Positions 5,925 through 57,030 of a stretch of DNA of 64,000 nucleotides are shown here, piece by piece. The notes beneath the pieces are model-generated. The model was given only the letters and a program-made list of their open reading frames with translations, had not been told where the DNA came from and searched no databases. Position numbers and translations under genes: made by a program. How positions within the stretch are numbered: the first letter of the stretch is position 1; every line of letters begins with the position of its first letter. The stretch covers positions 186,001 through 250,000 of the forward strand of contig JAQTZA010000003.1 of NCBI GenBank assembly GCA_028687995.1, written 5' to 3'. This stretch comes from Bacteroidales bacterium. Lineage in GTDB: Bacteria > Bacteroidota > Bacteroidia > Bacteroidales > UBA7332.

Positions 5925-5940
5925 GATTATAGCAAATTTT

Positions 5941-5992
5941 AGAAAAATGAACAACTCTCTTTCTTACAGAAAAAGTGGTTGTTCATTTTTCT
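5941..5992 (+). terminator. Intrinsic terminator-like hairpin after the 823-aa beta-helix gene
   Basis: A perfect 15-bp inverted repeat, AGAAAAATGAACAAC at 5941-5955 and its complement at 5978-5992, with the run of T inside the right arm. It lies 16 nt after the stop codon. The remaining gap to 6149 shows no other clear feature. Confidence 0.75.
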
Positions 5993-6148
5993 AATCTAAA
6001 AATAGACTGATGAAGAGTCTTCAGTTTCTGATCACAAGTATTTTCATACCTAAGAAACACCAATCAAAATTCAATAACATACACACACTGATTCAACTAC
6101 AATTAATTTTTTGATTATAACCTTAACATTAATCACCTAAAAAATTGT

Positions 6149-9895: not shown

Positions 9896-9906
9896 AAATT
9901 AATTCC

Positions 9907-9951
9907 AACCGTCAATAATCGGTGTCAGATCTGATTATTGACGGTTTTTTT
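9907..9951 (+). terminator. Rho-independent terminator
   Basis: A 12-bp perfect stem, CCGTCAATAATC (9909-9920) with its complement GATTATTGACGG (9933-9944), followed by seven T (9945-9951). Adjacent A/T extend it. It ends the upstream beta-helix transcript 12 nt after its stop codon, so the next paralogue needs its own promoter. Confidence 0.88.
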
Positions 9952-10028
9952 ACAAAAAGACCAAAGATTTTGATTCCGAAAAAAAACACACAAATAAAAT
10001 TTTAAAATATACAATTAACACCATAAGA

Positions 10029-13000
10029 ATGATGAAAATTTGGTCACACAAGAAATCGCTATTTCTATTACTAATTATGTTTGGTTTGTTTGCGAAAACA
10101 AGCCGCGCAACAAACTATTACTCCGATCCAACTGCCACTGGAAAAATGACAAATACAGGCACTGCTGCAAGTCCATGGGGTAGCTTGAGTGCTATTTTTG
10201 CAGCAGGCAAAACTTTTATAGCAGGCGATACGATATTTCTAAAAACTGGTAATCACGGTTACGCAGTAGTGAAAGGATCAAATACAGGCTTTGTAGTAAT
10301 TACACCCGCCTCGGGTCAAAATCCGATTCTAACTCGATTAAGAGTTGGCAATGGCACAAATCAGACGGATTATTGGAAAATTTACAAGTTAAACATTCAA
10401 TCTATATCGACTACAGTTGGCTCAACAATAGGTGTCCCACTTGTCGAAATTTATGGGCTTAGCTCGCACGTCACCATCAGTGGATGCGCAATTTCGTCCA
10501 CATCAAATACAACGACTTGGAACCGAGCTGAATGGAGAGATAGCTGCAATAGCGGACTTTCTACGCGAGCCAATCTGAATGCGAACCACATCATTGAAAA
10601 TAATACGATTACCAATGTGGCATTTGGCATTCAAATATCATCCTCAAAAACAATCGTTAGAGGCAATACTGTTCAAAACTTCACACACGATGCCAGCAGA
10701 GTACTGGGTAGTAATATCATCTTTGAAAAAAATAAACTGTTTGATTTAATCAAGGTAATGGCATACTCCGAAAACCACGACGATTTGTTTCAGGCTTTTA
10801 CCACAGCAACACCGAATATAGGAATTGACACGCTTAAAAATGATACAATTCGACAAAATATTTTCATAAATACGACTGATACTACTCGCAACTTTCGTGG
10901 TTCTGCACAAGGAATTGGCTGTTTTGACGGACCTCTAGTGAATTGGTCTGTAGAAAATAATATTGTGTTAACCGACAATTGGCATGGAATAACGCTTAAT
11001 AGTGCCACAAACTGTCAGATAATAAACAACACTGTTTTAGATCCTTACCTCTATACCCCTGTCGATTCAGTCGATCAGAATGCGACCAGTGTAGGTCCCA
11101 CGTGGATAAGTATTTCCGAAAAATCTGGAATCATAAGTTCCAATAATGTTGTAAAAAATAATTTGGTGGCAAATACCGTGACAATTGGATCCCCAACGAT
11201 GGGAACAGCATCAAACAACATCATAGTCGGAGCAATATCCAATTACAGCACCTATTTCAAAGACGCATCAAATTTAGAACTGCCTGGCAATTTTGATTTA
11301 CACCTCAACACAGGTTGCGCCGCCGTCGATGCGGGCGTTGCCGTCACTTCTCCAACAAGCGATTTCGACGACATTCCCCGACCTCAAGGAGCAGCATATG
11401 ACATCGGTGCTTACGAATACAAAAATGCAGAGTTAGCTGCCACATCATCGGGTGGTGGTAGCGGTACGTATGGCACACTAAAAGCCGTTTTCGACGATAT
11501 AAATAACGGAAAATTGACAGGAAATATCACTGTTCAGGTGAAAGCCTCAACCATAGAAACTGCTTCGGCAGTACTGAAAGCCAGTGGAACGACAACTGCT
11601 GGCGGAACATCCAGCTACACGTCTGTGAAAATATTTCCTACTTCAGCCAATCTTTCGATAAGCGGGAACATCGCCTCCGGAAACTTAATCGATTTGCAAG
11701 GAGCCGATCACATAACAATCGACGGACGAATGTACGTTGGCGGAATTCCGAGCTCCGATTCAAAATCGCTGACTATCGAAAATAGCGCAGCCACAGCGGC
11801 CGTTGCCATTAATCTGGGAATTCACGCTGAATACAATTCTGTGAAATTCTGCACCATCAAAGGATATTCTGCAACTTCAAAAGGAGTGATAAATTTTCAG
11901 GCACCATCCACTGTCGGAAATGGAAATAGCCACAACTCAATCAGCGACAATACCATCACCGGAAATTCGACAGGGAAACCCTATTATGGAATCGTTTCCA
12001 CAGGATTTGCAGGTTCACCTAGTACTGCCGACACCATTCAATCGAATGAATTTCCTCAAATCCTGCAGGCTGGAGTTCCATCATCGGCTATTTGCTTATC
12101 AGGGGCATCTAACGACAGTTGGAAAATCTCGGGAAATAGCATCTACGACACCTCTTCGTCGTTCGCTCCAACAAGTACTTCTGCCTATTACGCTATCAAT
12201 ATTTTGGGTGGTTTTGGATACGAAATTACTGACAACTACATCGGTGGACAAACCGCACAATGCGGAGGAAATCCATTGACCAAAACGAATGTAAATAACA
12301 ATGTTTTTGCAGGGATCTATTTAAAAACGGCTGTTGCAGGAGCCGTATCGTCAATTCAAAACAACACCATTCAAAATTTTCTTTGGAAAAACAGTGGTAC
12401 TGGTCAATGGTACGGAATTATGATTGATGCCGGATCAGTTACCGATTTTAATATTGGAAACGTGAGTGGAAATACAATCGGCGACAACTCAACCACAGGC
12501 TCAATCAACTATACAGCAGGTGCTACAGGCGGAAATCTGTATGGAATCTATATTGCCACAACTGGAACGACATCTTGTCAAAACAATAAAATCGGATCAC
12601 TGTTAGGCAATAATAGTAAATCAGGAACTGGAGGAACAACCGCCGTAACTGCCATCTACAAATCAGCAACAGGTGGAACAACGAACATCAGCAATAACAC
12701 GATTGGAAGCCCAACAACAGCTAATTGCATTCTTACCACAAAGGCCATTGCTTCTCAAAATATTTATGGAATCAACTGTGCAGGAACTGCAACCACAAAT
12801 GTAATCAACAACAACGTCATTGCGAATTTGAAAGATAGCACGACAACCGGTACAATATATGGCATTTCGTTGACTGGTGGCAAGACTACTGTAAATGGGA
12901 ATCTAATTCACAGTCTCTTCTCCACGGCGGCTTCTACAGGAGCTATCACAACAGGCATTTCACTCGGAGCAACAGTGAGCACAACCTGCAGCAACAACAT

Positions 13001-13799
13001 TATTCTTTTAGGTGGAAACAACGCTGCAACCATTTATGGATTTAACGAAGCTGCAACCGCAGTAGCCAACAATATTTATTTCAACACAGTCTATATTGAT
13101 GGTGCACCAACGTTGAAAACACTGAAATCGTATGGCCTTTACAGTGCTGGAACCGGAGCGACAAATGCCAGAAACTTTAGAAATAACATCTTCTTCAACA
13201 ACCGGATTAATGCCGGAGCAACCGGAAATAATTATGCAATAGGTCTTGCTACTTACGGCACTGGAACGTTGGTTTGCAACTACAACGACCTGTTTGTTTC
13301 CGCTGCAACGAACAATTATGTTGGGATATACAATACTACAAATAAGAAAGCATTAATTGACTGGCAATCTACCGTCATTACTGGTGTTACGCTTGATGCT
13401 AATAGTAAAGGAGATGATCCTATTTTCGACAATGCTGGAGGCAAATTAGCAATTGATTATATTACTGCTACTTCATCGATTGTATCAGGAGCTACAAATT
13501 CAGGCATTTCAACTGACTTTGAGGGTATTTCGAGGAGTAATATTGCTCCAATAATGGGAGCTCTCGAAACCAGATCGCTAACAACTAATCTCAATGCTGA
13601 AAAACACCTTGAACCGAGTTTTAGAATCACAGAAAATGGCATTACCGCTGTTTTTAACGACCCGACTCTAGTGGAACTTTACACAATAGATGGTCTAAAA
13701 ATAGATCTAATAAAAACCACAGGAACATATTCCAGAAATCTGAAAAATGGAATTTACATAATTAGAATAAATGGAAATGCAACTAAATTCATTAAATAG
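10029..13799 (+). CDS. Second large two-module beta-helix protein with T9SS sorting domain
   Basis: A 1256-aa paralogue of the preceding gene with the same order: signal peptide 1-27 (cut after KTSRA), module A about 28-462 (NYYSDPTATGKMTNTGTAAS, GDTIFLKTGNHGYAVVKGSN, ending DIGAYEYK), module B about 467-1180 (GTYGTLKAVFDDINNGKL, ITIDGR), then a type A T9SS sorting domain (ELYTIDGLKIDL, GIYIIRINGNATKFIK). By eye more than half of the positions match the 6149 gene across the whole length, so this is a tandem duplication. It leads the closely spaced run of genes continuing to 17779 (13-nt gap to the protease). Function is inferred only from fold and export signals: surface glycan interaction or depolymerisation. 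Confidence 0.85.
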   Translation: MMKIWSHKKSLFLLLIMFGLFAKTSRATNYYSDPTATGKMTNTGTAASPWGSLSAIFAAGKTFIAGDTIFLKTGNHGYAVVKGSNTGFVVITPASGQNPILTRLRVGNGTNQTDYWKIYKLNIQSISTTVGSTIGVPLVEIYGLSSHVTISGCAISSTSNTTTWNRAEWRDSCNSGLSTRANLNANHIIENNTITNVAFGIQISSSKTIVRGNTVQNFTHDASRVLGSNIIFEKNKLFDLIKVMAYSENHDDLFQAFTTATPNIGIDTLKNDTIRQNIFINTTDTTRNFRGSAQGIGCFDGPLVNWSVENNIVLTDNWHGITLNSATNCQIINNTVLDPYLYTPVDSVDQNATSVGPTWISISEKSGIISSNNVVKNNLVANTVTIGSPTMGTASNNIIVGAISNYSTYFKDASNLELPGNFDLHLNTGCAAVDAGVAVTSPTSDFDDIPRPQGAAYDIGAYEYKNAELAATSSGGGSGTYGTLKAVFDDINNGKLTGNITVQVKASTIETASAVLKASGTTTAGGTSSYTSVKIFPTSANLSISGNIASGNLIDLQGADHITIDGRMYVGGIPSSDSKSLTIENSAATAAVAINLGIHAEYNSVKFCTIKGYSATSKGVINFQAPSTVGNGNSHNSISDNTITGNSTGKPYYGIVSTGFAGSPSTADTIQSNEFPQILQAGVPSSAICLSGASNDSWKISGNSIYDTSSSFAPTSTSAYYAINILGGFGYEITDNYIGGQTAQCGGNPLTKTNVNNNVFAGIYLKTAVAGAVSSIQNNTIQNFLWKNSGTGQWYGIMIDAGSVTDFNIGNVSGNTIGDNSTTGSINYTAGATGGNLYGIYIATTGTTSCQNNKIGSLLGNNSKSGTGGTTAVTAIYKSATGGTTNISNNTIGSPTTANCILTTKAIASQNIYGINCAGTATTNVINNNVIANLKDSTTTGTIYGISLTGGKTTVNGNLIHSLFSTAASTGAITTGISLGATVSTTCSNNIILLGGNNAATIYGFNEAATAVANNIYFNTVYIDGAPTLKTLKSYGLYSAGTGATNARNFRNNIFFNNRINAGATGNNYAIGLATYGTGTLVCNYNDLFVSAATNNYVGIYNTTNKKALIDWQSTVITGVTLDANSKGDDPIFDNAGGKLAIDYITATSSIVSGATNSGISTDFEGISRSNIAPIMGALETRSLTTNLNAEKHLEPSFRITENGITAVFNDPTLVELYTIDGLKIDLIKTTGTYSRNLKNGIYIIRINGNATKFIK

Positions 13800-26605: not shown

Positions 26606-26633
26606 AAGGTTTACCGAAATAAAATAATTGAAT

Positions 26634-28928
26634 ATGCACTTTTTTAAACAAGTTATACTCTTTCTTTTCCTTACTATATCGCTTAGCTCGTATTCTCAAA
26701 TTCCGGTTGGTTCTTGGCGCACTCATTTAACTTATGCTTCAGTTACACAGGTGGCAGAAACTCCCGAAAAAGTATATGGCATATCTGATGGCGCGCTTTT
26801 TTCTTACACCAAAGAGGATAATAATGTAGATGTTTACACCAAAATTGACGGGCTGAGTGACAACAAGATTTCGCTAATTTCTTATAGTGTGGAGAATAAA
26901 CTCTTGTTTATTATTTATGACAATGCAAATATCGATCTCTTGACCGATGATGGCAAGATTTTCAATTTACCTGACATTAAAAGTAAAAATGCGGCTCTAA
27001 ACAAAACGATAAATGGAGTGACTTTTATCGGCTCAAATGCCTATTTATCTACTGGATATGGAATTTCGATTATTAATTTAATAAAACACGAAATAGCGGA
27101 TACCTATCTTCTTAATAAAAAAACGTACTCTTCTATCTTATTTGAAAATAAGCTATATGCAGCTACCGAAAGTGGAATCATGGTTGCCAACGCTTCATCA
27201 AATTTAGTAGATCCAGGGAACTGGACACTCGCTTTAAAATTTGTCGCTCATCAATTGGTTGTCTTTAAAAATCAACTCATTGGATTGAATTATGAAGAAG
27301 GACTTGCGACAATCTCTGGCAATACTTACAATATTTTTTATCCGAGTAATGTCCTTTCTGGGTTAGTTGTATCTAATGATATGATGGTTGCCTACGGTCA
27401 ATGGCAAGTTTCGTATTTCACCTCAACGTCAGAAGAAAAATCTATATCTGTTACTGATCTATTTGGGATATCTGCATTATCTGCCAATCAAACTACGTGG
27501 CTGGCGAATGGCTCAAACGGTATTACGAAAATTACAAAAACAGCAGATGGTTTTGAAAAGGTGGATGTAGGAATTAGACCGGATGGACCTCTAGCCAACA
27601 GTCCGTACAAATTACGTTTTAGTAAAAATAAATTGATGATAGTCGGTGGTGGTGCATGGGATGATCGATTTGACACTAAAGGGCTAATGATGTTTTTCGA
27701 GAATAATAAGTGGAGCTTTCAAAAAGTGGACACTATTATAATGGATAATGTAGCTCGTGATTTCGTAGATATTGTAGAAGATCCTCGAGAAGTTGGTCAT
27801 TATTTTGTATCGTCTTATGGAGAAGGCCTTTACGAATTCAGAAATCAAAGACTCGTAAAAAAACATGACCACACAAACAGTATCATCGAAACGCACGAGT
27901 TAGTTAAAGGGGCCGACCATTATGACCGCGTATATGCGCTTCTATACGATAAAGACAACAATCTCTTTGTGTCGAATATGCACACGGCAAAAACATTTAA
28001 AGTCCTCACAAAAGATGGACAGTGGATTGCTTTAAATTATGCACCGATTGCAAACAAAGAGACGGTTTTTGAAATTATTCAGAACAAACGAGGTGTTTAT
28101 TGGTCCTTAAATTCTACAGGTGGAACGGGATTATTCGTATTCGATACAAAAGGAACACTCGCTAATCAAGCCGACGATCAATACAAATTTCTGACAGAAA
28201 TAAATTATTTAGATAATCTTGAAACGAAATCTATCTCTCCCGAAATTTTCTTCTGCTTAGCAGAAGACAAGAATGGAGCTATTTGGGTAGGGACAGATAT
28301 GGGACCAATAGTTTTTAACAGCCCATCTAAAGTTTTCACCGACAATTTCCTTGGATCTCGCATAAAAGTACCTCGAAACGATGGTACACAACTTGCCGAT
28401 TATCTACTTGAAGGAGAAAAGATTAGAGTAATATGTGTGGATGGTGGAAATAGAAAATGGATCGGAACTGAGGAAAACGGTGTGTATTTAGTGAGTGAAA
28501 ACGGGCAAGAGACTCTTTTTCACTTTACATCTGACAACAGCCCATTACTATCAAACAAAGTATTATCCATAGCTATTCATCCACTTACCGGAGAGGTTTT
28601 TATAGGCACTGACAAAGGGTTGGTCTCTTACCGAAGTGATGCCATTGAAGGAAAAAAAAGCTATTCGAATGTGTATGCATTTCCTAATCCAGTACAACCC
28701 AACTATGAAGGGTTGATTACAATAACTGGATTGATTGCCAATTCTACGGTTCGAATCACAGACATTACAGGAAATTCCATTTTTGAAGGTCAATCTGAAG
28801 GAGGTCAAATATCATGGAACGGACGGAATCGAAAAGGAGAACATTTGGCAAGTGGCGTTTACTTAGTCTATTCTGCAATAAGCGAGGCTCTTGACGGTGT
28901 TGTTACAAAAATTCTGATTATAAAATAA
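26634..28928 (+). CDS. porZ: PorZ-like T9SS attachment-complex protein (copy 1)
   Basis: A 764-aa exported protein with signal peptide MHFFKQVILFLFLTISLSSYS and mature start QIPVGSWRTHL, the typical PorZ N-terminus. The body (about 25-670) reads as two-component-regulator-type beta-propeller blades (VYGISDGALFSYTKEDN, IDGLSDNKI, AIHPLTGEVFIGTDKGLVSY). The C-terminal ~85 residues resemble a sorting-domain fold (AFPNPVQPNYEGLITITGL, ASGVYLVYSAI). In Porphyromonas gingivalis PorZ sits on the cell surface with PorU, PorV and PorQ and delivers anionic LPS for attachment of cargo. That role fits the many T9SS cargo genes in this window. A second copy follows directly. Confidence 0.85.
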   Translation: MHFFKQVILFLFLTISLSSYSQIPVGSWRTHLTYASVTQVAETPEKVYGISDGALFSYTKEDNNVDVYTKIDGLSDNKISLISYSVENKLLFIIYDNANIDLLTDDGKIFNLPDIKSKNAALNKTINGVTFIGSNAYLSTGYGISIINLIKHEIADTYLLNKKTYSSILFENKLYAATESGIMVANASSNLVDPGNWTLALKFVAHQLVVFKNQLIGLNYEEGLATISGNTYNIFYPSNVLSGLVVSNDMMVAYGQWQVSYFTSTSEEKSISVTDLFGISALSANQTTWLANGSNGITKITKTADGFEKVDVGIRPDGPLANSPYKLRFSKNKLMIVGGGAWDDRFDTKGLMMFFENNKWSFQKVDTIIMDNVARDFVDIVEDPREVGHYFVSSYGEGLYEFRNQRLVKKHDHTNSIIETHELVKGADHYDRVYALLYDKDNNLFVSNMHTAKTFKVLTKDGQWIALNYAPIANKETVFEIIQNKRGVYWSLNSTGGTGLFVFDTKGTLANQADDQYKFLTEINYLDNLETKSISPEIFFCLAEDKNGAIWVGTDMGPIVFNSPSKVFTDNFLGSRIKVPRNDGTQLADYLLEGEKIRVICVDGGNRKWIGTEENGVYLVSENGQETLFHFTSDNSPLLSNKVLSIAIHPLTGEVFIGTDKGLVSYRSDAIEGKKSYSNVYAFPNPVQPNYEGLITITGLIANSTVRITDITGNSIFEGQSEGGQISWNGRNRKGEHLASGVYLVYSAISEALDGVVTKILIIK

Positions 28929-29010: not shown

Positions 29011-31299
29011 ATGAAAAAAACAATCCTCCTTCTTCTATCTTATATCTCACTCACTGTTTCGGCACAATTACCTAGCGGAACTTGGAGAACTCATCTTTCG
29101 TACTCATCTGTAACACAAGTTGCAGAAACTCCAACAAAAGTATTTGGTTTGGCAGATGGCGCGCTGTTTGCATACAATAAAGCGACTCAAAATATAAATT
29201 TATATAGCAAGGTCGATGGTTTGAGCGATAATAAAGTAACACTCATTGCGTACAGCTCAACGAATAGCACACTGATGATTGTTTATGACAATTCCAATAT
29301 CGATTTGTTGACTGAAGATGGGCATATATACAATATTCCTGACATAAAAGACAATCAAAAGCCGTTTAACAAGACTATCAATAAAGTAAATTTTGAAGGC
29401 TCAATCGCTTATGTTGGAACGTATTATGGCATAACGACAATTAATCTAACGACTCGTTTAGCTGAAAATACATATCTATTAAAAAAGAAAGTGCTCTCAA
29501 CAGCCACATTCAATGGAAATATTTATGCAGCTACCGATCAAGGTATTGTTTCTGCCTCTTTGTCGTCAAATCTTGCGGATAATAACAATTGGACGTTAAT
29601 TAATGCCTTAAAAGCGACAGATTTAGCGGTATTCCAAAACACCTTGGTTGGAGTTGTTACTAGTAGCGGACTCTACTCTATTACTCCTAGCAGCTATCAA
29701 TTATTGAAAACAAACACAGCATTTACAAATCTTTTTGTTGTAAACAACGTATTGATTGTATTTGGACTCAAACAGTTAAGTTATTTTACCTCTCTTGCTC
29801 AAGAAACTATTGTTTCAGGAACAACCTATTATGGACTTTCAGCGCTTGATCCCACTATAACGACATGGCACGCAGCAGGAACAGCAGGGATTAATCGTAT
29901 TGATAAATCGGGTAGTAGCTATACAAAAGTGACGCTTGGTTACAAACCGACGGGTCCAATGGCAAATAATCCATACCGCATGAAATTTAGCGGTAATAAA
30001 CTAATGGTCGTTGGAGGTGGAGCATATTATGATCGATACAAAACACCTGGTCAGATGATGTTTTTCAATAATGAGCAATGGAGTTTTCAAAAAGTAGATA
30101 CAATTCTAGCTCAAGGAGCAACCGCACGAGATTTTATGAATATCGTAGAAGATCCTCGCGAAACGAACCATTACTTTGTCTCATCATATGGAGAGGGAGT
30201 CTATGAGTTTAGAAATCAAAAATTGGTAAAAATACACGATCATTTTAATAGCTCTATCCAAGCACACGCATTAGTGGGAACTGCTTCACATTACGATCGT
30301 ACATTTGGTCTTTGTTATGATAAAGATACAAATCTGTATGTGACCAATATGCATGTCAGCAATGCAGTGAAAGTATTCTCAAAAAATGGTACATGGACAT
30401 CGCTGAACTATCCTTTGATTGCGAATAAAGAGTTACTGTTCGAAATTGGACAAACAAAAAAAGGGTTATTTTGGGTGATAAGTGTAGAGGTGGAAACTGG
30501 TGTATTTTTCTTCGACACCAAGGGTACATTGACTAACCAAAGTGACGACCAATCGAAGTTTTTTTCAACAATCGATTATCTCGAAAACGGTGAACAAAAA
30601 TCTTTAAAACCTGCCAACTTCCTCTGTCTTGCAGAAGACAAAAAGGGTGAATTGTGGGTAGGGACAGACAAAGGACCTGTAATCTTCAAGAATCCTTCTC
30701 AAATTTTCGATGCAAATTATATGGAATCTCGTATAAAATTGCCTGCCACAGCCGCTTCCCCGATTACTGGATATCTTTTAGAAGGCGATAATGTAACCTC
30801 TATAGCTGTGGACGCAAATAACAGAAAATGGCTAGGAACGGATGCTAATGGTGTATATTTCGTAAGCGAAGATGGTCTTCAAACTATTTTTCACTACTCT
30901 ACAGACAACAGTCCATTGCCATCTAATAAAATTCTTTCGATCGCCATTCATCCTACAACTGGAGAAGTATTCATTGGAACAGACAAAGGGCTTGTTTCTT
31001 ATACAAATGAAGCTTTAACAAGTCAAAAGAAATTTACAGAAGTATATGCAACTCCCAATCCAGTAAGACCAGAATACGACGGATCGATCACAATATCAGG
31101 ATTAAAGCTCAATTCATCTGTCAAAATTACAGACGCTAGTGGGAAGACCGTTTTCGAAGGCACTTCTACCGAAACTCAGATTGTTTGGGATGGATTAGAT
31201 AAATCCGGTAATCGCGTAGATACAGGAGTCTATTCTGTCTATGCCTCAACAAGCGATTCCTTAGAGTCGTTTGTCACTCAAATTGTTGTTGTAAAATAG
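29011..31299 (+). CDS. porZ: PorZ-like T9SS attachment-complex protein (copy 2)
   Basis: A 762-aa tandem paralogue of the preceding gene, same architecture: signal peptide MKKTILLLLSYISLTVSA, mature QLPSGTWRTHLSYSSVTQV, propeller region (GLADGALFAYNKA, KVDGLSDNKVTLIAY, AIHPTTGEVFIGTDKGLVSY) and a C-terminal beta domain (TPNPVRPEYDGSITISGL, DTGVYSVYAST). By eye it is more than half identical to copy 1 over the full length, with no gaps of note. Most T9SS genomes are described with one PorZ, so one copy may serve a different cargo class or carrier glycan; sequence alone does not say which is the ancestral form. It has its own upstream -7 box and a hairpin after the stop. Confidence 0.83.
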   Translation: MKKTILLLLSYISLTVSAQLPSGTWRTHLSYSSVTQVAETPTKVFGLADGALFAYNKATQNINLYSKVDGLSDNKVTLIAYSSTNSTLMIVYDNSNIDLLTEDGHIYNIPDIKDNQKPFNKTINKVNFEGSIAYVGTYYGITTINLTTRLAENTYLLKKKVLSTATFNGNIYAATDQGIVSASLSSNLADNNNWTLINALKATDLAVFQNTLVGVVTSSGLYSITPSSYQLLKTNTAFTNLFVVNNVLIVFGLKQLSYFTSLAQETIVSGTTYYGLSALDPTITTWHAAGTAGINRIDKSGSSYTKVTLGYKPTGPMANNPYRMKFSGNKLMVVGGGAYYDRYKTPGQMMFFNNEQWSFQKVDTILAQGATARDFMNIVEDPRETNHYFVSSYGEGVYEFRNQKLVKIHDHFNSSIQAHALVGTASHYDRTFGLCYDKDTNLYVTNMHVSNAVKVFSKNGTWTSLNYPLIANKELLFEIGQTKKGLFWVISVEVETGVFFFDTKGTLTNQSDDQSKFFSTIDYLENGEQKSLKPANFLCLAEDKKGELWVGTDKGPVIFKNPSQIFDANYMESRIKLPATAASPITGYLLEGDNVTSIAVDANNRKWLGTDANGVYFVSEDGLQTIFHYSTDNSPLPSNKILSIAIHPTTGEVFIGTDKGLVSYTNEALTSQKKFTEVYATPNPVRPEYDGSITISGLKLNSSVKITDASGKTVFEGTSTETQIVWDGLDKSGNRVDTGVYSVYASTSDSLESFVTQIVVVK

Positions 31300-46912: not shown

Positions 46913-48067
46913 CTATTTATCAATCGTTCCGTGGGGAGTATGGATAAAATGTTTGCCGGCTCCTTTCAGTTTAAAAAGGTTAGCAAACATCAACAGAAAT
47001 ACATAAGGGATAGATGATATTGCTTTTACGAGTTCGAAAGTATAAAGACGTTTAGGAACAGAGATGCCTAAAATTGTGAAGAATATCACAAATAATATCC
47101 ACCACTTCAAGCTAAGTTCTGGCGCAAACAGGGTAGTTACTGCTGTCAAGATGAATAATACACCAATCAGCAATATGCGTGGGGGAAACGCCATTTGTAT
47201 TACTTTATCACAGAAATCAATATTCTTAATTCGAATAGCATAGGTGAATTCCGGGAGAAATCGAGTTAAAATTTCCAACTGCGCCGAAAGCCAACGTTTA
47301 CGTTGATTTGCAAAATCAGCTGGTCGCTGTATTTTTTCATCTAACACTTCGGCGTGGTGTAAATAATGAATTTTAAATCTGTCTAAAAGTACCACATGCT
47401 CCAACTCTTTATCTTCACCACCAATGGATTTGATGTTATTGATAAGGGTTTTGTAATGTTCAAATTCGAAAGCCATGCCTGACCCAATCAAAGCAGCCGA
47501 CATACCTACATTGTAATGACCTTTTCTGAAGATCGAATTATTAATCTCTTCGCTAACTGCATCCAAAATAGCAAATTTTGTATTTGTGTTTTTGGCCGAT
47601 CGATGTGTTTGAACAATCTGATAGCCAGCCTCAAAAGCAGCATTGACCTTTTGCAAATAGAGTTTTTCGATTACATTATCAGCATCCAATACGATTGCAA
47701 TATCATAGCCTGAAAGTTGCTGCAGGGCGAAATCCAACGACTTAGCTTTCGTACTTTGGTCCAGTACAGCTCTGAATAGTTTAATAGGTAATTTTAAAAG
47801 ACGAAGATTAGTCTCTTCTTTCATTTTATCTGAAATCACAACGATGTCAAATTTGTCTCTCGGATAATCCTGATCCAAACAAGATTGTACACTCTCCTCT
47901 ATCACTCCGTCTTCTTTGTAAGCGGGGAGCAGAATAACAAATTTACGAGCATTTTGGAGAGAAGGAGCCGGCTCCTTTTTTCTGAAAACAGATGCTACTG
48001 CAAAAAATCCCAGATAAGAAACTGGAATCCAATAAAGCAGGTATAAAATTAAATCAATGATGTGCAT
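46913..48067 (-). CDS. Membrane family 2 glycosyltransferase (tandem copy 2)
   Basis: A 384-aa enzyme: an N-terminal membrane segment (LILYLLYWIPVSYLGFFAVA), GT2 core (KFVILLPAYKEDGVIEESVQ, IVLDADNVIEKLY, the acceptor block GGEDKELEHV, and QRKRW), then several C-terminal membrane segments and the end IHTPHGTIDK. It is clearly paralogous to the next gene upstream (same length, and shared blocks such as MSEEINNSIFRKGHYN-like and LIGSGMAF). Probably adds a sugar on the inner face of the membrane or extends a chain. Confidence 0.9.
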   Translation of the reverse strand: MHIIDLILYLLYWIPVSYLGFFAVASVFRKKEPAPSLQNARKFVILLPAYKEDGVIEESVQSCLDQDYPRDKFDIVVISDKMKEETNLRLLKLPIKLFRAVLDQSTKAKSLDFALQQLSGYDIAIVLDADNVIEKLYLQKVNAAFEAGYQIVQTHRSAKNTNTKFAILDAVSEEINNSIFRKGHYNVGMSAALIGSGMAFEFEHYKTLINNIKSIGGEDKELEHVVLLDRFKIHYLHHAEVLDEKIQRPADFANQRKRWLSAQLEILTRFLPEFTYAIRIKNIDFCDKVIQMAFPPRILLIGVLFILTAVTTLFAPELSLKWWILFVIFFTILGISVPKRLYTFELVKAISSIPYVFLLMFANLFKLKGAGKHFIHTPHGTIDK

Positions 48068-48078
48068 ATTTTTAATGT

Positions 48079-49233
48079 TTAGGTGGTACCATGTGGTGTG
48101 TGAATAAATTTTTTATTCGCATTTCTCAATTTAAACATATTCATTAGCACGATGATGAATATTTGAGGTAATGTGAAAAGTGCCTTGAATAGTTTAAAAG
48201 TGACCATTTTACGTGGTATTGCCACAAACAACGAAAGCAGTAAAGTTATCAATAATAATTGCCATTTAAATCCTATCGCTTCATCAATACACGTAAAAAC
48301 AGCTGTAGATAAAATTACTCCTCCCAAAATTAAAATCCGAGGCAAAAGCAACATTTGATATACTTTGTCACAAAAATCAAGATTCCTCTGCCTAACGCCG
48401 AGTCGAAACAATGGTACAAAACGGGCTAAATGCTCTATTTGCGCTGCCATCCATCTGCGACGTTGTTGCGTAAAGTCATCTTTCCGCTGGATTTTCTCAT
48501 CCAAAACAATTGCATGATGCAGGTAATGAATCTTTACCTTATTCATCAAATAAATATGCTCCAATTCCTTATCAAATCCACCTACAACATCTACGTTTGA
48601 CATGATGGATTTGAATTGGCTAAATTTGAAAGCCATTCCCGAGCCAATAAGTGCTGACGATAATCCAAGATTATAATGTCCTTTTCTGAAAATAGAGTTA
48701 TTTATCTCTTCACTCATTGCGTCCAATACTGCAATGCTGTTGTTCTGATTTTTTGCAGTTCTATGTCCTTGCACAATTGTTGCACCACGATTAAACATTA
48801 CATTGAATTTCGAAAGGAAATCCGGTTCCATAATATTATCGGCATCCAATACCAATGCAACATCGTATCCCGAGTAGTCCTTTAATGCTTTGTTTAACGC
48901 CTTTGCTTTTGTCCGTTTTTTTAGAATAACATTTTTTATTTTAATAGGTAATAGAGCCAATTTTTCCATTGTTTCATCACCCATTCCTTCTGCAATTACG
49001 AGAACATCAAACTTTTCTTTTGGATAATTTTGAAACAAACACGCTTCTACACAACCCAAAATAACACCGTCTTCTTTGTAGGCTGGTATTAAAATCAAAA
49101 ACGAATGAGGGTTTTCACTTGACGCTTGAGGCTCAGCCTTCGGCCACATCGATCCAATCGCAAAAAAAGCCAAATAGGCTACAGGAAATCCAAAAATCAC
49201 AAACAACAAAACATCAATCACACTTATCACCAT
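48079..49233 (-). CDS. Membrane family 2 glycosyltransferase (tandem copy 1)
   Basis: A 384-aa paralogue of the next gene in the operon, same order: membrane segment (LLFVIFGFPVAYLAFFAIGS), GT2 core (FLILIPAYKEDGVILGCVEA, LVLDADNIMEPDF, GGFDKELEHI, QQRRRW), C-terminal membrane segments, end IHTPHGTT. The start overlaps the previous gene's 3' end by 20 nt, so translation is coupled. The two copies differ mostly in the N-terminal and membrane parts, which fits duplication followed by change of donor or acceptor. Confidence 0.9.
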   Translation of the reverse strand: MVISVIDVLLFVIFGFPVAYLAFFAIGSMWPKAEPQASSENPHSFLILIPAYKEDGVILGCVEACLFQNYPKEKFDVLVIAEGMGDETMEKLALLPIKIKNVILKKRTKAKALNKALKDYSGYDVALVLDADNIMEPDFLSKFNVMFNRGATIVQGHRTAKNQNNSIAVLDAMSEEINNSIFRKGHYNLGLSSALIGSGMAFKFSQFKSIMSNVDVVGGFDKELEHIYLMNKVKIHYLHHAIVLDEKIQRKDDFTQQRRRWMAAQIEHLARFVPLFRLGVRQRNLDFCDKVYQMLLLPRILILGGVILSTAVFTCIDEAIGFKWQLLLITLLLSLFVAIPRKMVTFKLFKALFTLPQIFIIVLMNMFKLRNANKKFIHTPHGTT

Positions 49234-51117: not shown

Positions 51118-52602
51118 CTAATCTTGAATCAACAATTCTTTTCTAGCATTTTCCTCATCAATTTCCCGCTGAAACAATGGTGCCATAAATATAAAAGAGA
51201 GACTCATATAGGTAATAAGACTCGTTGGTAGTTGTCCTAAAACGGTATTACCATAAGAGGCTCCAATTATGCCAATATAGCCACACAATAATGCAGTTAT
51301 TTTAAAGGACAATTCCCGATCTTTAATTCTAAAGAAGACAATCCAAATACCTCTCAACAAGCAGTACACCAAAATAGATATATGCAGCATCAATCCGACT
51401 TCTCCTTGCTCAACCCAAATGGCAACAAACCAAGAATCTGTAGGAATTTGAGCAGACAACAGATAAGGCGTATATTGTTGACCAAAAGAACCTGTTGTTC
51501 CTATTCCACACCCAAAAGGTTTATTCGCCATATACGTTTTCAACCTTTCTTGATTAACCAATCGTGTTTGCAATGAGGCGTCGTTGGTATCGAAAGAGGA
51601 TCGCATTCGCCTTATTTGATCATTTCCATTACCAATCGATGTGAATTTAAAAAATATAAACATCAACATCAACAGGAATAATCCGACAGTCATCAGTTTC
51701 CAATTTTTCGACAATATGATAAATAACATGAACCCAGCTGCCGGAACGGCCATTGCTCCTCGTGTGCCAGAAATCGACATTCCGTAGAAACACAACAAAG
51801 CAACAATTCCATAATATAATTTGGATCGCATTTCTTTTTTCCCAAGAGCAACAATAAAGAAAACAACGCCGCTATGTCCCATGGTTGCACCAAACTGACC
51901 AGCATCCGTATAAAACGAGAAAACCCGCAATCCCGACCAAATAATGTGAGTTAATGCACCTCCCGTATCAAGCCAACGCTGCTCAGCAAAATCCATCCCT
52001 ATATAAAGTTGTTGCAATCCTTTGAGAACTCCCAAAATGCTGAATATCGACCATAGTCGAATAATCATATTTAGGTCACGGTATTTATTGAAAATAACAA
52101 ACGTTACCGGTATTGTCAAAAAGAAATAGAGAGAAAATCCTCTCATGGCATACACCCAAGCAATGCGACTCTCTACAATTGGATTGAGTAATTCGAACAA
52201 GGCGTATAAATACCAAATAAGAGCAACCAACGACAAATCGTTGATCATTCGTGAAAATCCCACATCATTCTTGTAACTCTTAAACAAAAGAGCAACATAT
52301 GTTAGAACTAATAACCCATCTATACCGAGCCCCAATGGCGCGGGGAAATAGCGAGTTATTCCCATTGCAAAGTAATTGTAATAAAAAAGAGTGATGAATG
52401 CAAATCTTGGATTTGAGAAGAGAAAAGAAACAAACAAGATCGCAATAGGACCTCCAGCAAGCAGTACACCAGTGGACATTTCGGCATCTTTGAGCAAATA
52501 GACATAAATAGCAACTAATATCAGAATTGCCAATTTGACGATTGCCTTATCCCAAAGCTGATTCGTCTTTCCATTACGCAAACCCGATGTACTTTCAGTC
52601 AT
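51118..52602 (-). CDS. O-antigen polymerase/ligase-type membrane protein (Wzy-like)
   Basis: A 494-aa polytopic inner-membrane protein with about 12 hydrophobic segments and a larger periplasmic loop (about 320-400) with RLVNQERLKTYMANKPFGCG, the region where O-antigen ligase/polymerase (Wzy_C-type) proteins carry functional Arg and His. In a Wzx/Wzy-dependent pathway it would polymerise flipped repeat units. It could instead be a WaaL-type ligase; the presence of Wzx and a Wzz-like protein in the same locus favours polymerase. Confidence 0.87.
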   Translation of the reverse strand: MTESTSGLRNGKTNQLWDKAIVKLAILILVAIYVYLLKDAEMSTGVLLAGGPIAILFVSFLFSNPRFAFITLFYYNYFAMGITRYFPAPLGLGIDGLLVLTYVALLFKSYKNDVGFSRMINDLSLVALIWYLYALFELLNPIVESRIAWVYAMRGFSLYFFLTIPVTFVIFNKYRDLNMIIRLWSIFSILGVLKGLQQLYIGMDFAEQRWLDTGGALTHIIWSGLRVFSFYTDAGQFGATMGHSGVVFFIVALGKKEMRSKLYYGIVALLCFYGMSISGTRGAMAVPAAGFMLFIILSKNWKLMTVGLFLLMLMFIFFKFTSIGNGNDQIRRMRSSFDTNDASLQTRLVNQERLKTYMANKPFGCGIGTTGSFGQQYTPYLLSAQIPTDSWFVAIWVEQGEVGLMLHISILVYCLLRGIWIVFFRIKDRELSFKITALLCGYIGIIGASYGNTVLGQLPTSLITYMSLSFIFMAPLFQREIDEENARKELLIQD

Positions 52603-52631: not shown

Positions 52632-54710
52632 TTAGAATTTTTGTTTCGCACTAAACTCCATATGCATTATCCTTATAAGCAAATTACCCAATTTAGATCT
52701 CTTTACAGGGAAATTTGCCCACTGAGTCTGCAACATGCTAAGGCCGACCCCATTGAGTAGTATAATTGGTTGTTGACCGGTTTGTTCAATCAATAGTTTG
52801 ACAATTCTATTATCAACCGTTTTCCATCCTCTATTGGCTCTGCAAACTAAAACATTAAGTGAGTTATCACTTACTTGGTTATTATCGAAATATTTGTCGC
52901 TTATTTCTGGCAAATCCTTTACAAGAATTTTCTTTGAAAGGTCCGTACCATTCTGTTCGTCCAGTTGAGCAAATGCTGTTTCAAGTTTATCTTTTATAAA
53001 ACTTTTCCCTTCTCCGCTATACAAACTCAATAAATTAATTTGAACGGCATCTTTATGGTCTTTCATTACCCTGAGTGTTTCCAATGCTAAATAATGAGCC
53101 GCTACAGTCTCCAGATTTTCAACTTTAGGTTTTTTTTCATTTAAAATCAGTGGATACACAAAACCAACTTTTAACCCAGAAAGTCTTTCTGTGCGAGTAA
53201 CATTATTAATGGTTGTATCCAAAAACTCAATAAGAATGATAAGAACAAGAATCAATAAGAAAACAGCTAAAAATGCAATTACAGCCTTCGTACTTGCCTT
53301 GTCAGGAAGTGTAGAAAATGGGAAACTAGGAGAATCTAATATAGTAATCGACCCAGCAGATAACTTCTCACTCTTCTCTTTAAGTTTTGCTGAATGCAAA
53401 CCGTTCAAAACAGTCAAGTATTGTTCTTCTGTAGCGCCAATTTCACGCTCCTGTTTTTTCACATTGGCTCCCACTGGTGAGTATTCATCGAAAAGCTGAT
53501 TAACCTCTTCGGTTCTTTTTTCAAGAATAGGAAGTTGTGCTTTTGCTTGATCATAAGCTATCACATTGGTTAGCCATTCCGACAAAATACTTTGTACTGT
53601 AATGCCTTCTGATGTGTTTTGCATTAAATATACCGAATCAATTGCTGCTCGAAGCTGCGATTTGAGATTGCCCAATTTGCCAGTATTTGAAATAATAGGG
53701 GCGACACCATCCTCTTCTGTGGAAGTTGGCGTTGTTTTTGAGTAAAATGTTTGCGCTGCAGCTTCTGCACTAATTTTGGAAATCTGATTGCGAATAAACA
53801 AAATCTGATCAGACTTCAATCTCAATCTATTTTGAAGCGTTAACCGCTTTTCCAATTCACTAATTGACTTTCGAGTCCCTTCAATAGCCATTTCTAGAAC
53901 GTCGATTCTATCCTCTATTCCGAATTTTTGAGATACAATAAGTTTACTCTGCTCTTCATAGTTTACTATGTTATTTTGCTGACTATAAACAAGCAGACTA
54001 TTCTCACGCTCTTCGAGCAGTTTCATCAAATCAGCCTTCTCTTGCTCAAAGTACTTAATCACTTCATTCGACTGACCTGTTTTCAAATCTTGAAAGTTCT
54101 GTTTGGTGGCATCAAATAAGATAAGCAGTGCTTGATAGCAAATACCTGGATCGTCGGCCTTGTACGAAACTTCAACTAAGTCGCTGCGATCTAAACGTGA
54201 AAGGGAGACGGACGATAATGCGGCTATGCAATACGGGTTTGCACTTTTGTACAATAAATTATAGAGAAAATTATCTTCACTTTTCTTGAGATACTGATAG
54301 AAATTAGCAAAGGTTTCTTCTTCCGATTTTTTATTTATTAGTTTCTTCAAATCAACGGGGGCATTGCTCATAAGAAACTGATAATGAACTTTATTCATAA
54401 ATTTCTCGTTCTTTTCGCCAAACATCATTGCTCGTACAATGATTCTCAATCCGACATCTTCAAGATTTTTTTGCGACTTAAGCACATTAATCAAATTATC
54501 GTAGGCTATCAACGCTTGGGAATAATCGACAGAACCTTGAACATCTAAGCTAACGCCTGATGTCAAAGCAGTATAAATTGTCATCGACGATTGATATGTT
54601 TTGGGTTGCTTGCGAGTAAAAAAGTAAATTGCAACAGCCGCAATGATTGGTAAAATCACCAACCACATCCATCGTCTAATCAATAACTTCAAAAAATAAG
54701 TTATGTTCAT
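52632..54710 (-). CDS. Wzz-type chain-length protein with degenerate kinase-like C-terminus
   Basis: A 692-aa polysaccharide co-polymerase. Membrane segments at about 14-32 (WMWLVILPIIAAVAIYFF) and 478-500 (AVIAFLAVFLLILVLIILI) flank a long periplasmic domain with coiled coil around 200-290 and a GNVR-like block. The cytoplasmic C-terminus (about 530-692) resembles a BY-kinase: GEGKS near 567 matches Walker A, and PIILLNGV fits the last strand. But the middle of the kinase, with the Walker A' and B aspartates, and a Tyr-rich tail are missing, so it is probably inactive as a kinase. It overlaps the OEP gene by 4 nt (ATGA). Controls polymer length and links to the exporter. Confidence 0.85.
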   Translation of the reverse strand: MNITYFLKLLIRRWMWLVILPIIAAVAIYFFTRKQPKTYQSSMTIYTALTSGVSLDVQGSVDYSQALIAYDNLINVLKSQKNLEDVGLRIIVRAMMFGEKNEKFMNKVHYQFLMSNAPVDLKKLINKKSEEETFANFYQYLKKSEDNFLYNLLYKSANPYCIAALSSVSLSRLDRSDLVEVSYKADDPGICYQALLILFDATKQNFQDLKTGQSNEVIKYFEQEKADLMKLLEERENSLLVYSQQNNIVNYEEQSKLIVSQKFGIEDRIDVLEMAIEGTRKSISELEKRLTLQNRLRLKSDQILFIRNQISKISAEAAAQTFYSKTTPTSTEEDGVAPIISNTGKLGNLKSQLRAAIDSVYLMQNTSEGITVQSILSEWLTNVIAYDQAKAQLPILEKRTEEVNQLFDEYSPVGANVKKQEREIGATEEQYLTVLNGLHSAKLKEKSEKLSAGSITILDSPSFPFSTLPDKASTKAVIAFLAVFLLILVLIILIEFLDTTINNVTRTERLSGLKVGFVYPLILNEKKPKVENLETVAAHYLALETLRVMKDHKDAVQINLLSLYSGEGKSFIKDKLETAFAQLDEQNGTDLSKKILVKDLPEISDKYFDNNQVSDNSLNVLVCRANRGWKTVDNRIVKLLIEQTGQQPIILLNGVGLSMLQTQWANFPVKRSKLGNLLIRIMHMEFSAKQKF

Positions 54711-55471
54711 TCTTCTGGTGTTTGATTATTATTCTCTCTAAAATCCATTCCAGATAACTGTTCGAAATAGAAAACGCCCAATTTACAATTTCTTTTCAAC
54801 GATTCGTAAGCAACCAAAGCACTACTATATTGCTGACGAGCCACAATTAATTTATCTATTCCAATCAGTCCTTGTCGATACTCTTTCTCCGAAATAACAA
54901 TTTGAGCATTACTCATCTCCATAATTAAGCTATTCTCTTTGAAAGCATTTAGATTCATCTCGAGCTGTGTGTATTGCTCAAACAGTTTATACTTGAGTTC
55001 TTGAAGTGAGTTATCTAGCTCATACTGAGTTTGATCTACTTTCGATTTAGCCATTTTCACTCGAGTCTTATAATTAAAAATCGAGCTAAGGTTTAATCCA
55101 ATGCCAAATCCTGCACCATAAGTACTCGATTGCTGATTCGAAACATTGAGAGCGGATGTAGTTGCTGCAGCGGAAGAGGAGGAAATCATGGCTCCATTGC
55201 CATAGCTGTAAGCAGAATTTAATGAAAAATAGTTCATCCAATCTTTCTTTACCATACCCAGATTCAGATTCGACTCGAAAACGACTTGTTTCAGTTTCAA
55301 AATCTGTGGAGAACGACTAACGATTGAATCGTATATCGCTGAAAAAGGAGGTAGTACAGGGAAGTTGTATTGGGCTGTATTATAGATAGAATCTATGCTC
55401 GCATCTTGAGCAGATAGACCCATTATTCTGATAAAAAAAATAAATAAAATAAAATAACGAACCTTCTTCAT
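54707..55471 (-). CDS. Half-length TolC-like outer-membrane protein
   Basis: The ATG at 55471 gives a signal peptide (MKKVRYFILFIFFIRIMGLSA); a longer frame to 55504 has none. The 254-aa protein has one OEP-type repeat: IVSRSPQILKLKQVVFESNL, a strand-rich middle and long helices (about 140-235, QTQYELDNSLQELKYKLF, YRQGLIGIDKLIVARQQYSS). Normal TolC-type proteins have two such repeats and about 450 aa. It sits between the sugar transferase and the Wzz gene, where Wza-type exporters usually lie, so it may form the outer-membrane part of the export route, perhaps as a hexamer of single repeats; that is inference. Confidence 0.8.
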   Translation of the reverse strand: MKKVRYFILFIFFIRIMGLSAQDASIDSIYNTAQYNFPVLPPFSAIYDSIVSRSPQILKLKQVVFESNLNLGMVKKDWMNYFSLNSAYSYGNGAMISSSSAAATTSALNVSNQQSSTYGAGFGIGLNLSSIFNYKTRVKMAKSKVDQTQYELDNSLQELKYKLFEQYTQLEMNLNAFKENSLIMEMSNAQIVISEKEYRQGLIGIDKLIVARQQYSSALVAYESLKRNCKLGVFYFEQLSGMDFRENNNQTPEE

Positions 55472-55519
55472 TTGAGCTATTGTACTTAAATTGGAGAAAT
55501 TCACAACCGAATAAAGACT

Positions 55520-56677
55520 TTAAACATCTTCTTTCTGTATCATTGCTGGAATGGTTTTGAGAATGATTTTAAGATCTCCCCAAAACGTATAGTTTCGTGC
55601 GTATTGTACATCCAATAATTTGCGTTCTTCTGGCGACATTCTTGAGTTTTGACCTCTTTTTTCTACTTGCCACAATCCGGTAAGTCCTGCTGGAGCTAGA
55701 AAACGTTCAAGATAATTATCCGTTGTAAGCAGCTCAGCTTCATAGAGCGGCAAAGGTCTGTTTCCAACAATCGACATCTCGCCCTTTAACACATTGAATA
55801 GTTGAGGAAGCTCATCTACACTCAATTTGCGAATAATTCTTCCCACTTTCGTAACTCGGGGATCATTCTGTAGTTTTACAAAAGCCTTTGTTTGAACAGC
55901 TCTTTTTCCTTCAATATACGAAGCTTCATCTACAGTGCTATCATCCGAATAAAGAATTGAATTCGCTTGTGTAGTGTCATCCACTTTGAGTTTAAAAACC
56001 TCGCTTTCATCAATCACATACTGATTCAAATTCGATAACTCTTTTAATCTTGAATCGGCATCAATATACATCGATCTAAATTTATAGAAGCCAAAAACCT
56101 TATACCCCGTTCCGACACGTTTCGATTTATAGATAGGTTTTCCCTTACTTTCTATACGAATCGCCAATGGAACAAGTATCCAAACTGGAATCAGACAAAC
56201 AATGGCTACGCTTACAAATACCAAATCGAAAGCCCTTTTCCACAAAGGCATCTCATATTCATATACATTCTTGTTGATTTCTCGTGAAATAATGGCAATC
56301 TCTGAACCATGTTTTTGAAGAAATTTTATTCTCGACATCAACACTTCTTTCGATTCTAGTGGGTTTATGATGTCATTGATCCCAAAAGATAAATATTTAC
56401 GACCCTCTTCTGGCGTAATTTTATCCTTTAACAAAATCAAAAAACAGGTGGAAGAGACCTGTTTGCGAATGTGACTAATCCAATGCTTATCACTTTCAGA
56501 ATCAGTAGGTTCAATAAACACGAAGGAGACATCTCTAATTTCTGACAACTTCAGTATCGCTTGCACTGAATTTTCAAAAGTAGTAATGTCTTCTTCAATC
56601 GATAAAGACTTTATTGCCTCTATCCAAGTGGGTTGTTTACTTATACAAACAATTTTCTTTGTTATGATTTGATCCAT
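55520..56677 (-). CDS. Initiating sugar-phosphate transferase with degenerate receiver domain
   Basis: A 385-aa phosphoglycosyltransferase that moves a sugar-1-phosphate onto undecaprenyl phosphate, the first step of repeat-unit synthesis. The catalytic part (about 140-385) has one membrane segment (LVFVSVAIVCLIPVWILVPL), FYKFRSMYIDADSR, DELPQLFNVLKGEMSIVGNR and LAPAGLTGLWQVEKRG, as in WcaJ/WbaP/PglC C-terminal domains. In place of the usual four N-terminal membrane segments there is a receiver-like domain (about 8-118) lacking the phosphorylation site Asp (FVFIEPTD) and conserved Lys. A ~45-aa insertion with DDTTQANSILYSDDST sits inside the catalytic domain. The start overlaps the response regulator gene by 16 nt. 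Confidence 0.9.
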   Translation of the reverse strand: MDQIITKKIVCISKQPTWIEAIKSLSIEEDITTFENSVQAILKLSEIRDVSFVFIEPTDSESDKHWISHIRKQVSSTCFLILLKDKITPEEGRKYLSFGINDIINPLESKEVLMSRIKFLQKHGSEIAIISREINKNVYEYEMPLWKRAFDLVFVSVAIVCLIPVWILVPLAIRIESKGKPIYKSKRVGTGYKVFGFYKFRSMYIDADSRLKELSNLNQYVIDESEVFKLKVDDTTQANSILYSDDSTVDEASYIEGKRAVQTKAFVKLQNDPRVTKVGRIIRKLSVDELPQLFNVLKGEMSIVGNRPLPLYEAELLTTDNYLERFLAPAGLTGLWQVEKRGQNSRMSPEERKLLDVQYARNYTFWGDLKIILKTIPAMIQKEDV

Positions 56678-57030
56678 TTTGCAATTCTTACTTTCAACTC
56701 TTCTGGGTTAAATGGCTTCAAAATAAAATCTGCAGCTCCCATTTCTAGCAATTTAATTTGATCAACACGACTCTCTACACTTGATAAGACAAAAACTGGA
56801 ATTGAAGAGAATAGTACACTCGATTTCAGTTGTGAAAGAAACTCAAATCCTGAAATTTCAGGCATATTGATGTCGGTAATGATAAGATTTGGCAAATTCC
56901 CTTTTTGCAGATAGGCCATTGCAGCAATCACATTTTCAAAATAGACAGTATCATAACTGCCTTTCAAATACATACTGATGACTTTTGCAATTTCAGGTCT
57001 GTCATCGACCAACATTATCAACGGCTTCAT
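56662..57030 (-). CDS. Single-domain response regulator (CheY-like receiver)
   Basis: A 122-aa stand-alone receiver domain with no output domain. All catalytic residues are present: acidic pair Asp9-Asp10 (MLVDDRPE), phospho-acceptor Asp53 (IITDINMP), Ser83 (FVLSS) and Lys105 (FILKPFNPEEL). It is the first gene of the minus-strand polysaccharide arm and overlaps the sugar transferase by 16 nt, so the pair is co-made. The cognate histidine kinase is not in the window. It probably acts by protein contact, most simply with the receiver-like domain of the next protein. Confidence 0.93.
   Translation of the reverse strand: MKPLIMLVDDRPEIAKVISMYLKGSYDTVYFENVIAAMAYLQKGNLPNLIITDINMPEISGFEFLSQLKSSVLFSSIPVFVLSSVESRVDQIKLLEMGAADFILKPFNPEELKVRIAKWIKS

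Follow-up and report, generated by a model that had tools for sequence, protein, structure and literature searches.

The receiver and transferase genes and their operon

The window, that is, the whole stretch of 64,000 nucleotides that was analysed, carries on its minus strand a receiver gene followed by a sugar transferase gene, and in the list of open reading frames the two overlap by 16 nt. The features of the locus are listed below.

56662..57030, minus strand: stand-alone receiver (single-domain response regulator), 122 aa (open reading frame; Pfam Response_reg, 1.1e-22; family alignment)
55520..56677, minus strand: initiating sugar-1-phosphate transferase (small monotopic phosphoglycosyl transferase) with an N-terminal pseudo-receiver, 385 aa (open reading frame; Bac_transf, 1.3e-55; AlphaFold2; Foldseek)
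56270..56656, minus strand: pseudo-receiver domain, transferase residues 8-136 (hhalign, 99.5%; model; Foldseek; conservation)
55538..56239, minus strand: transferase catalytic domain, residues 147-380 (Pfam; alignment of relatives)
55865..56068, minus strand: insertion in the catalytic domain, residues 204-271, a hairpin-helix module (length comparison; model; motif search)
54707..55504, minus strand: half-length outer-membrane efflux (OEP/TolC-like) protein, the next gene (Pfam OEP, 2.3e-18; neighbourhood count)
52632..54710, minus strand: Wzz-like chain-length/polysaccharide co-polymerase protein, same operon (Pfam Wzz, 4.7e-05, just under the cut-off)
51118..52602, minus strand: Wzy_C/O-antigen ligase-type polymerase, same operon (Pfam Wzy_C, 8.2e-14)

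The receiver/transferase pair is the head of a Wzy-type polysaccharide operon: 3' of the transferase, in the same direction, lie the half-length OEP, Wzz-like and Wzy_C genes and then a run of glycosyltransferase genes. The divergent gene upstream of the pair, identified by eye and not by a search, we take to encode glutamate-semialdehyde dehydrogenase. The OEP/TolC-like protein (54707-55504) is a single-repeat, half-length form; of 71 family loci, 36 have such a gene beside the transferase, mostly with a product of 222-323 aa. Since inspection by eye recognised no Wza-type export gene near the pair, this protein may provide an alternative outer-membrane exit.

Several repeated genes were observed elsewhere in the window. 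Two adjacent and very similar 384-aa glycosyltransferase genes (46913-48067 and 48079-49233) form an apparent tandem duplication. A further tandem duplication comprises adjacent genes for paralogous secreted proteins of 766 and 762 aa (26628-28928 and 29011-31299), which presumably resemble PorZ-like propeller proteins of type IX secretion. Three large secreted repeat proteins of related sequence (823, 1248 and 1256 aa) are encoded in succession at 3453-13799.

An intact receiver beside a decayed one

The stand-alone receiver is canonical. By Pfam and in the family alignment, D9/D10, D53, S83 and K105 are intact, D101, E111 and R115 are also present, and the protein thereby has the phospho-Asp, the S/T and the Lys of a single-domain response regulator. 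The original prediction had placed an intact receiver just before the transferase, with the 16-nt overlap, and the reading frames, the Response_reg match and the presence of D53 and K105 bear it out. Across the stand-alone receivers of the family, D53 is kept in 55 of 61, S/T83 in 61 of 61 and K105 in 60 of 61; one of the six lacking D53 (L017) is an apparently damaged reading frame.

Pfam detected only Bac_transf (147-380) in the 385-aa transferase, with no match in the N-terminal region. When the N-termini of 11 family members were combined into a profile, this aligned with the stand-alone receiver profile at 99.5% probability (E 7.6e-23, hhalign) and matched CheY and PhoB in a PDB search. 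The isolated N-termini of 9 of 11 relatives matched Response_reg, and in some relatives Pfam detected Response_reg and Bac_transf together. An AlphaFold2 model, computed from an input alignment of 41 sequences, shows the elements β1α1β2α2β3α3β4α4β5α5 in order at a pLDDT of ~90; the long α5 runs from 110 to 136, extending towards the catalytic domain. Foldseek matched this domain to the solved receiver 2qxy (TMt 0.86, 1.7 Å over 115 columns). The (βα)5 fold and the homology to receivers place the transferase N-terminus in the receiver superfamily, and the fold expected for residues 8-118 was found by both the model topology and the 2qxy match.

It is barely credible that the domain is instead the Rossmann-like DUF of the large transferases, shorn of its membrane helices. 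It does occupy the same position before the catalytic domain as the DUF of WbaP, whose structure (8t53) Foldseek matched over the full length; but profile, Pfam and fold results all indicate a receiver, and no CoA-binding/DUF match was obtained. We rejected a DUF/CoA-binding identity on the profile, the Pfam matches of the relatives and Foldseek.

The phosphorylation pocket of this receiver has decayed. In the alignment, the window protein has Glu56 at the phospho-site and has lost both the Lys and the acidic pair, so it lacks the set of residues of a phosphorylatable receiver. A receiver-like domain without phospho-Asp and Lys had been proposed, and the profile probability, the pLDDT of the model, the TM-score and these substitutions all agree with it. 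Counted in the reference frame of the window's stand-alone receiver, the phospho-site of 56 pseudo-receivers is E in 30, D in 11 and another residue in 15 (S in 3, N in 3 and Q in 2 among them), the Lys site is K in 5 of 56, and the first acidic position is mostly Gly. Besides Met1, the least variable positions include D101 (48 of 56) and R115 (41 R and 8 K of 56). They correspond to D102 and R116 of the window transferase and lie on the α4-β5-α5 face, by which OmpR/PhoB-type receivers and many pseudo-receivers dimerise (PMC12632262). Alternatively, D101 and R115 could form a bridge that holds the domain together internally.

The prevalence of Glu (30 of 56), which can act as a partial phosphomimic (review, PMC12632262), raises the question of whether Glu56 locks the domain in an active-like state that merely homodimerises the transferase, while the stand-alone receiver has other targets, such as export or chain-length proteins. 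Large transferases do function as dimers (PMC10942596). We nevertheless regard such a lock as improbable: residues other than Glu also occur at the phospho-site (D 11, S 3, N 3, Q 2, others), the Lys that would bind Glu is usually lost, and the receiver adjoins the transferase whatever lies downstream, the OEP gene being next in only 36 of 71 loci.

The catalytic part is a monotopic phosphoglycosyl transferase (Bac_transf, PF02397; 188 bits against a cut-off of 27). Its DX12P motif (D151/P164) and DE dyad (D288-E289) are intact in the window protein and invariant in 41 relatives, and Foldseek matched the C-terminal part of the model to PglC. The four N-terminal membrane helices plus DUF of a large transferase (WbaP/EpsZ type) were not found; in the model the N-terminus is a soluble receiver fold, and the remaining membrane helices are the catalytic domain's own. 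Catalytic fold and signature residues are the same as in PglC (8e37) and WbaP (8t53), but PglC has no extra domain and WbaP has membrane helices and a DUF where the window enzyme has the pseudo-receiver. The suggestion that the receiver-like domain stands in place of the usual membrane segments thus holds against large transferases such as WbaP, but not against small ones, which to our knowledge never carry the N-terminal membrane segments of the large enzymes.

The catalytic domain also contains an insertion between FRSM and DPRVT/DPRIT, a stretch of 68 aa in the window, with a median of 73 aa in the family and of 26 aa in 70 unrelated transferases. The unusual insertion of ~45 aa that had been noted is therefore real, but it is common to most of the family, and its supposed Asp/Ser-rich nature gave way to another description. 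Sorted by motif search and by eye, the insertions of 72 members include 27 with a C-x2-C...C...C motif (L012, L014, L015, L043, L121, L135, L140, L144 and L145 among them), 26 that are long without it and 19 that are short; the motif is absent from the window copy. In a four-cysteine member the insertion was modelled as a hairpin plus helix with moderate confidence. The same elements appear at lower confidence in the AlphaFold2 model of the window protein, where residues 228-237 are disordered. These comparisons make a degenerate four-cysteine module of zinc-knuckle-like, putatively metal-binding type the best reading of the window insertion; metal or redox sensing by the four-cysteine form is possible.

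Distribution of the pair in Bacteroidota

We drew relatives from 60 related genomes, from 395 that span the phylum and from scanned public genomes. Matches at E<=1e-60 occurred in 42 of the 395 phylum-wide genomes, and the public relatives include Bacteroides fragilis, Prevotella, Allomuricauda, Flavobacterium, Pedobacter, Mucilaginibacter and others. The catalytic-domain score delimits the family by a clean gap, with members at >=280 bits and the rest at <=205. Membership is accessory; in two further genomes of the genus to which the window belongs, all transferases fall outside the family. We found no family-specific paper on the Bacteroidota receiver/transferase pair in the literature.

Among 72 distinct members, 55 have both the pseudo-receiver and an adjacent receiver, 1 (L120) has the pseudo-receiver alone, 6 have the receiver alone and 10 have neither. 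A receiver gene thus lies directly upstream in 55 of 56 members with the pseudo-receiver, as predicted for a pair conserved together in other Bacteroidota, against 6 of 16 without it (Fisher p 1.5e-7, not corrected for phylogeny); when domain loss was tested against receiver loss with correction for the tree, the independent changes were too few to reach significance. The exception, L120, from the same locus as L169, retains the Asp in its N-terminal receiver and is immediately preceded by a gene for a HisKA/HATPase kinase.

Operon genes generally share phylogenetic signal, and the receiver and transferase might be functionally unlinked and merely keep their gene order. We consider such hitch-hiking very unlikely, because an adjacent receiver gene was found in 0 of 74 unrelated sugar transferases having enough upstream sequence, and because the pair persists while its upstream neighbours vary (uvrB-side, UDP-glucose dehydrogenase, kinases and others) and the downstream gene changes. 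Mirror-tree analysis gave a partial correlation of 0.54 between receiver and pseudo-receiver, the neighbouring export gene giving the same values; beyond the catalytic domain, their distance correlation was 0.64, and that of either with the export gene 0.65-0.68. As the export gene correlates equally, these values reflect operon co-inheritance and not specific receiver/pseudo-receiver co-evolution, and we rejected them as a sign of contact. Chemistry kept in one receiver and lost in the other, together with their near-obligate adjacency, points to a functional pair.

A receiver without a pseudo-receiver occurs at four places on the tree (L013; L133/L134/L141; L139; L047). In L013 (1498-2298), from the window's own family, the transferase has lost the entire pseudo-receiver while an intact receiver is still adjacent, and this locus is a natural deletion control for the domain. 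Given these lineages, the pseudo-receiver is not strictly needed, and the receiver may act directly on the catalytic domain. The ten members that have neither part weigh against the switch proposed below, and the receiver-only lineages against a strict receiver/pseudo-receiver dimer.

They also lend some weight to an arrangement in which the receiver contacts the catalytic domain or α5 directly and the pseudo-receiver serves dimerisation or stability instead of docking. The receiver-only lineages have a short transferase, α4-β5-α5 is the dimerisation surface of many pseudo-receivers, and in Myxococcus xanthus the regulator EpsW activates EpsZ, by a modelled contact, although EpsZ has no reported pseudo-receiver. 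We judge this arrangement unlikely on balance, as the receiver is retained far less where the pseudo-receiver is absent (6 of 16 against 55 of 56).

Proposed control of polysaccharide initiation

Two known systems offer models for the pair. In M. xanthus, proximity labelling and heterologous expression showed that EpsW~P interacts with EpsZ and stimulates it, and modelling suggests that it promotes the EpsZ dimer (PMC12802240, 2025). There a single-domain response regulator controls an initiating phosphoglycosyl transferase of a Wzx/Wzy-type pathway post-translationally (PMC12802240), as is proposed for the window pair. EpsZ, however, belongs to the large transferases, has four membrane helices and dimerises through a DUF, whereas the window enzyme is small and has a pseudo-receiver. 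Neither window protein scores as an orthologue (NCBIfam NF041866 and NF041877; 58.1 of 200 bits for EpsW, 157.3 of 800 for EpsZ).

Where the target of a receiver is itself a pseudo-receiver, the best analogue is PleD (receiver, pseudo-receiver, diguanylate cyclase). In both systems an intact receiver is paired with a pseudo-receiver beside an output enzyme, and in PleD phosphorylation of the receiver alters its contact with the pseudo-receiver, driving dimerisation and activity (PMC12632262). PleD is one polypeptide, whereas the window has two genes and a membrane sugar transferase as output. Pairing of a pseudo-receiver or atypical regulator with another regulator has also been proposed or shown for WhiI/BldM heterodimers and CmrR/CmrT, which are transcription factors without the enzyme output of the window pair.

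With both folds, the intact and the decayed pocket, the catalytic residues, the conserved pairing and the operon context established, we lean, by a little more than even chances, towards reading the pair as a switch of the PleD kind, divided over two genes, that would act where a Wzy-type polysaccharide pathway takes its first step. In this model, D53 of the stand-alone receiver would receive its phosphoryl group from a histidine kinase encoded elsewhere. So modified, the receiver would dock on the transferase through its α4-β5-α5 face. In the window protein the likeliest partner is the matching face of the pseudo-receiver, which would no longer be phosphorylatable (Asp to Glu) yet has retained D102 and R116 on that face. 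Binding might reposition the catalytic domain, linked by the long α5 helix, or alter how it pairs, and would most likely stimulate, not inhibit, transfer of sugar-1-phosphate to undecaprenyl phosphate. Gating of the transferase by the phosphorylated receiver is in this sense a plausible interpretation with strong precedent.

The likely source of the signal varies between lineages. No kinase gene adjoins the window pair or was found in the examined part of the window, and the genome has 22 HisKA matches, 21 of them over the cut-off. Among the 39 loci examined for upstream genes, about 10 encode a histidine kinase within ~4.5 kb. In L170 and L181 the gene immediately before the receiver encodes an HK-REC-Hpt protein, which supports phosphorelay input in such lineages. 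The active residues retained by the stand-alone receivers and the HK-REC-Hpt phosphorelay kinases encoded beside the pair in several lineages make control by phosphorylation plausible. An H-NOX (HNOB) gene and FIST proteins lie near the pair in L169 and L173, Flavobacteriia-type relatives, and HNOBA kinases in L169, L170 and L175; this neighbourhood suggests a nitric-oxide or heme-linked input to polysaccharide initiation in the L169, L173, L170 and L175 lineages. A search for an H-NOX domain in the window's own genome gave no match, while the positive control matched, and we set a nitric-oxide link aside for this genome.

Both the principle and the bare architecture were known already: control has been shown for EpsW/EpsZ, and receiver domains on small transferases have been noted (PMC12802240, citing O'Toole et al. 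2021). As described there, those enzymes apparently have the same architecture as the window enzyme; the discussion passage on them mentions no degenerate phospho-site, obligate adjacent receiver, receiver-only branches or kinase cassettes. The new elements here are a two-gene module that spans the phylum and has a degenerate receiver built into the enzyme, the natural variants of this module and its kinase neighbourhoods. In view of the similar enzyme-regulator pairing in Myxococcus (2025), the Bacteroidota pair looks like a new, widespread form of that control. Receiver control of initiating transferases has been proposed to be widespread, 'potentially beyond' myxobacteria (PMC12802240), and the family is a phylum-wide candidate for it with genetically tractable members in Bacteroides fragilis and Flavobacterium. 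Its natural variants (both parts, receiver only, neither) are ready-made controls, and as an intact partner nearly always adjoins, it makes a clean test case for pseudo-receiver function.

In many Bacteroidota the decayed receiver within the enzyme and the live one encoded just ahead of it would probably allow a sensor kinase to control sugar-chain production at its first step. We know of few examples of post-translational control of the initiating enzyme. More tentatively, and at somewhat less than even chances, in Bacteroidota, including gut Bacteroides and Prevotella, the phosphorylated receiver may heterodimerise with the transferase pseudo-receiver as a dedicated two-gene switch; two-component signals, perhaps including nitric oxide via adjoining H-NOX kinases in some marine lineages, would then gate the first committed step of surface polysaccharide synthesis. 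Such control bears on the way in which bacteria divide a limited supply of undecaprenyl phosphate between rival surface-sugar pathways.
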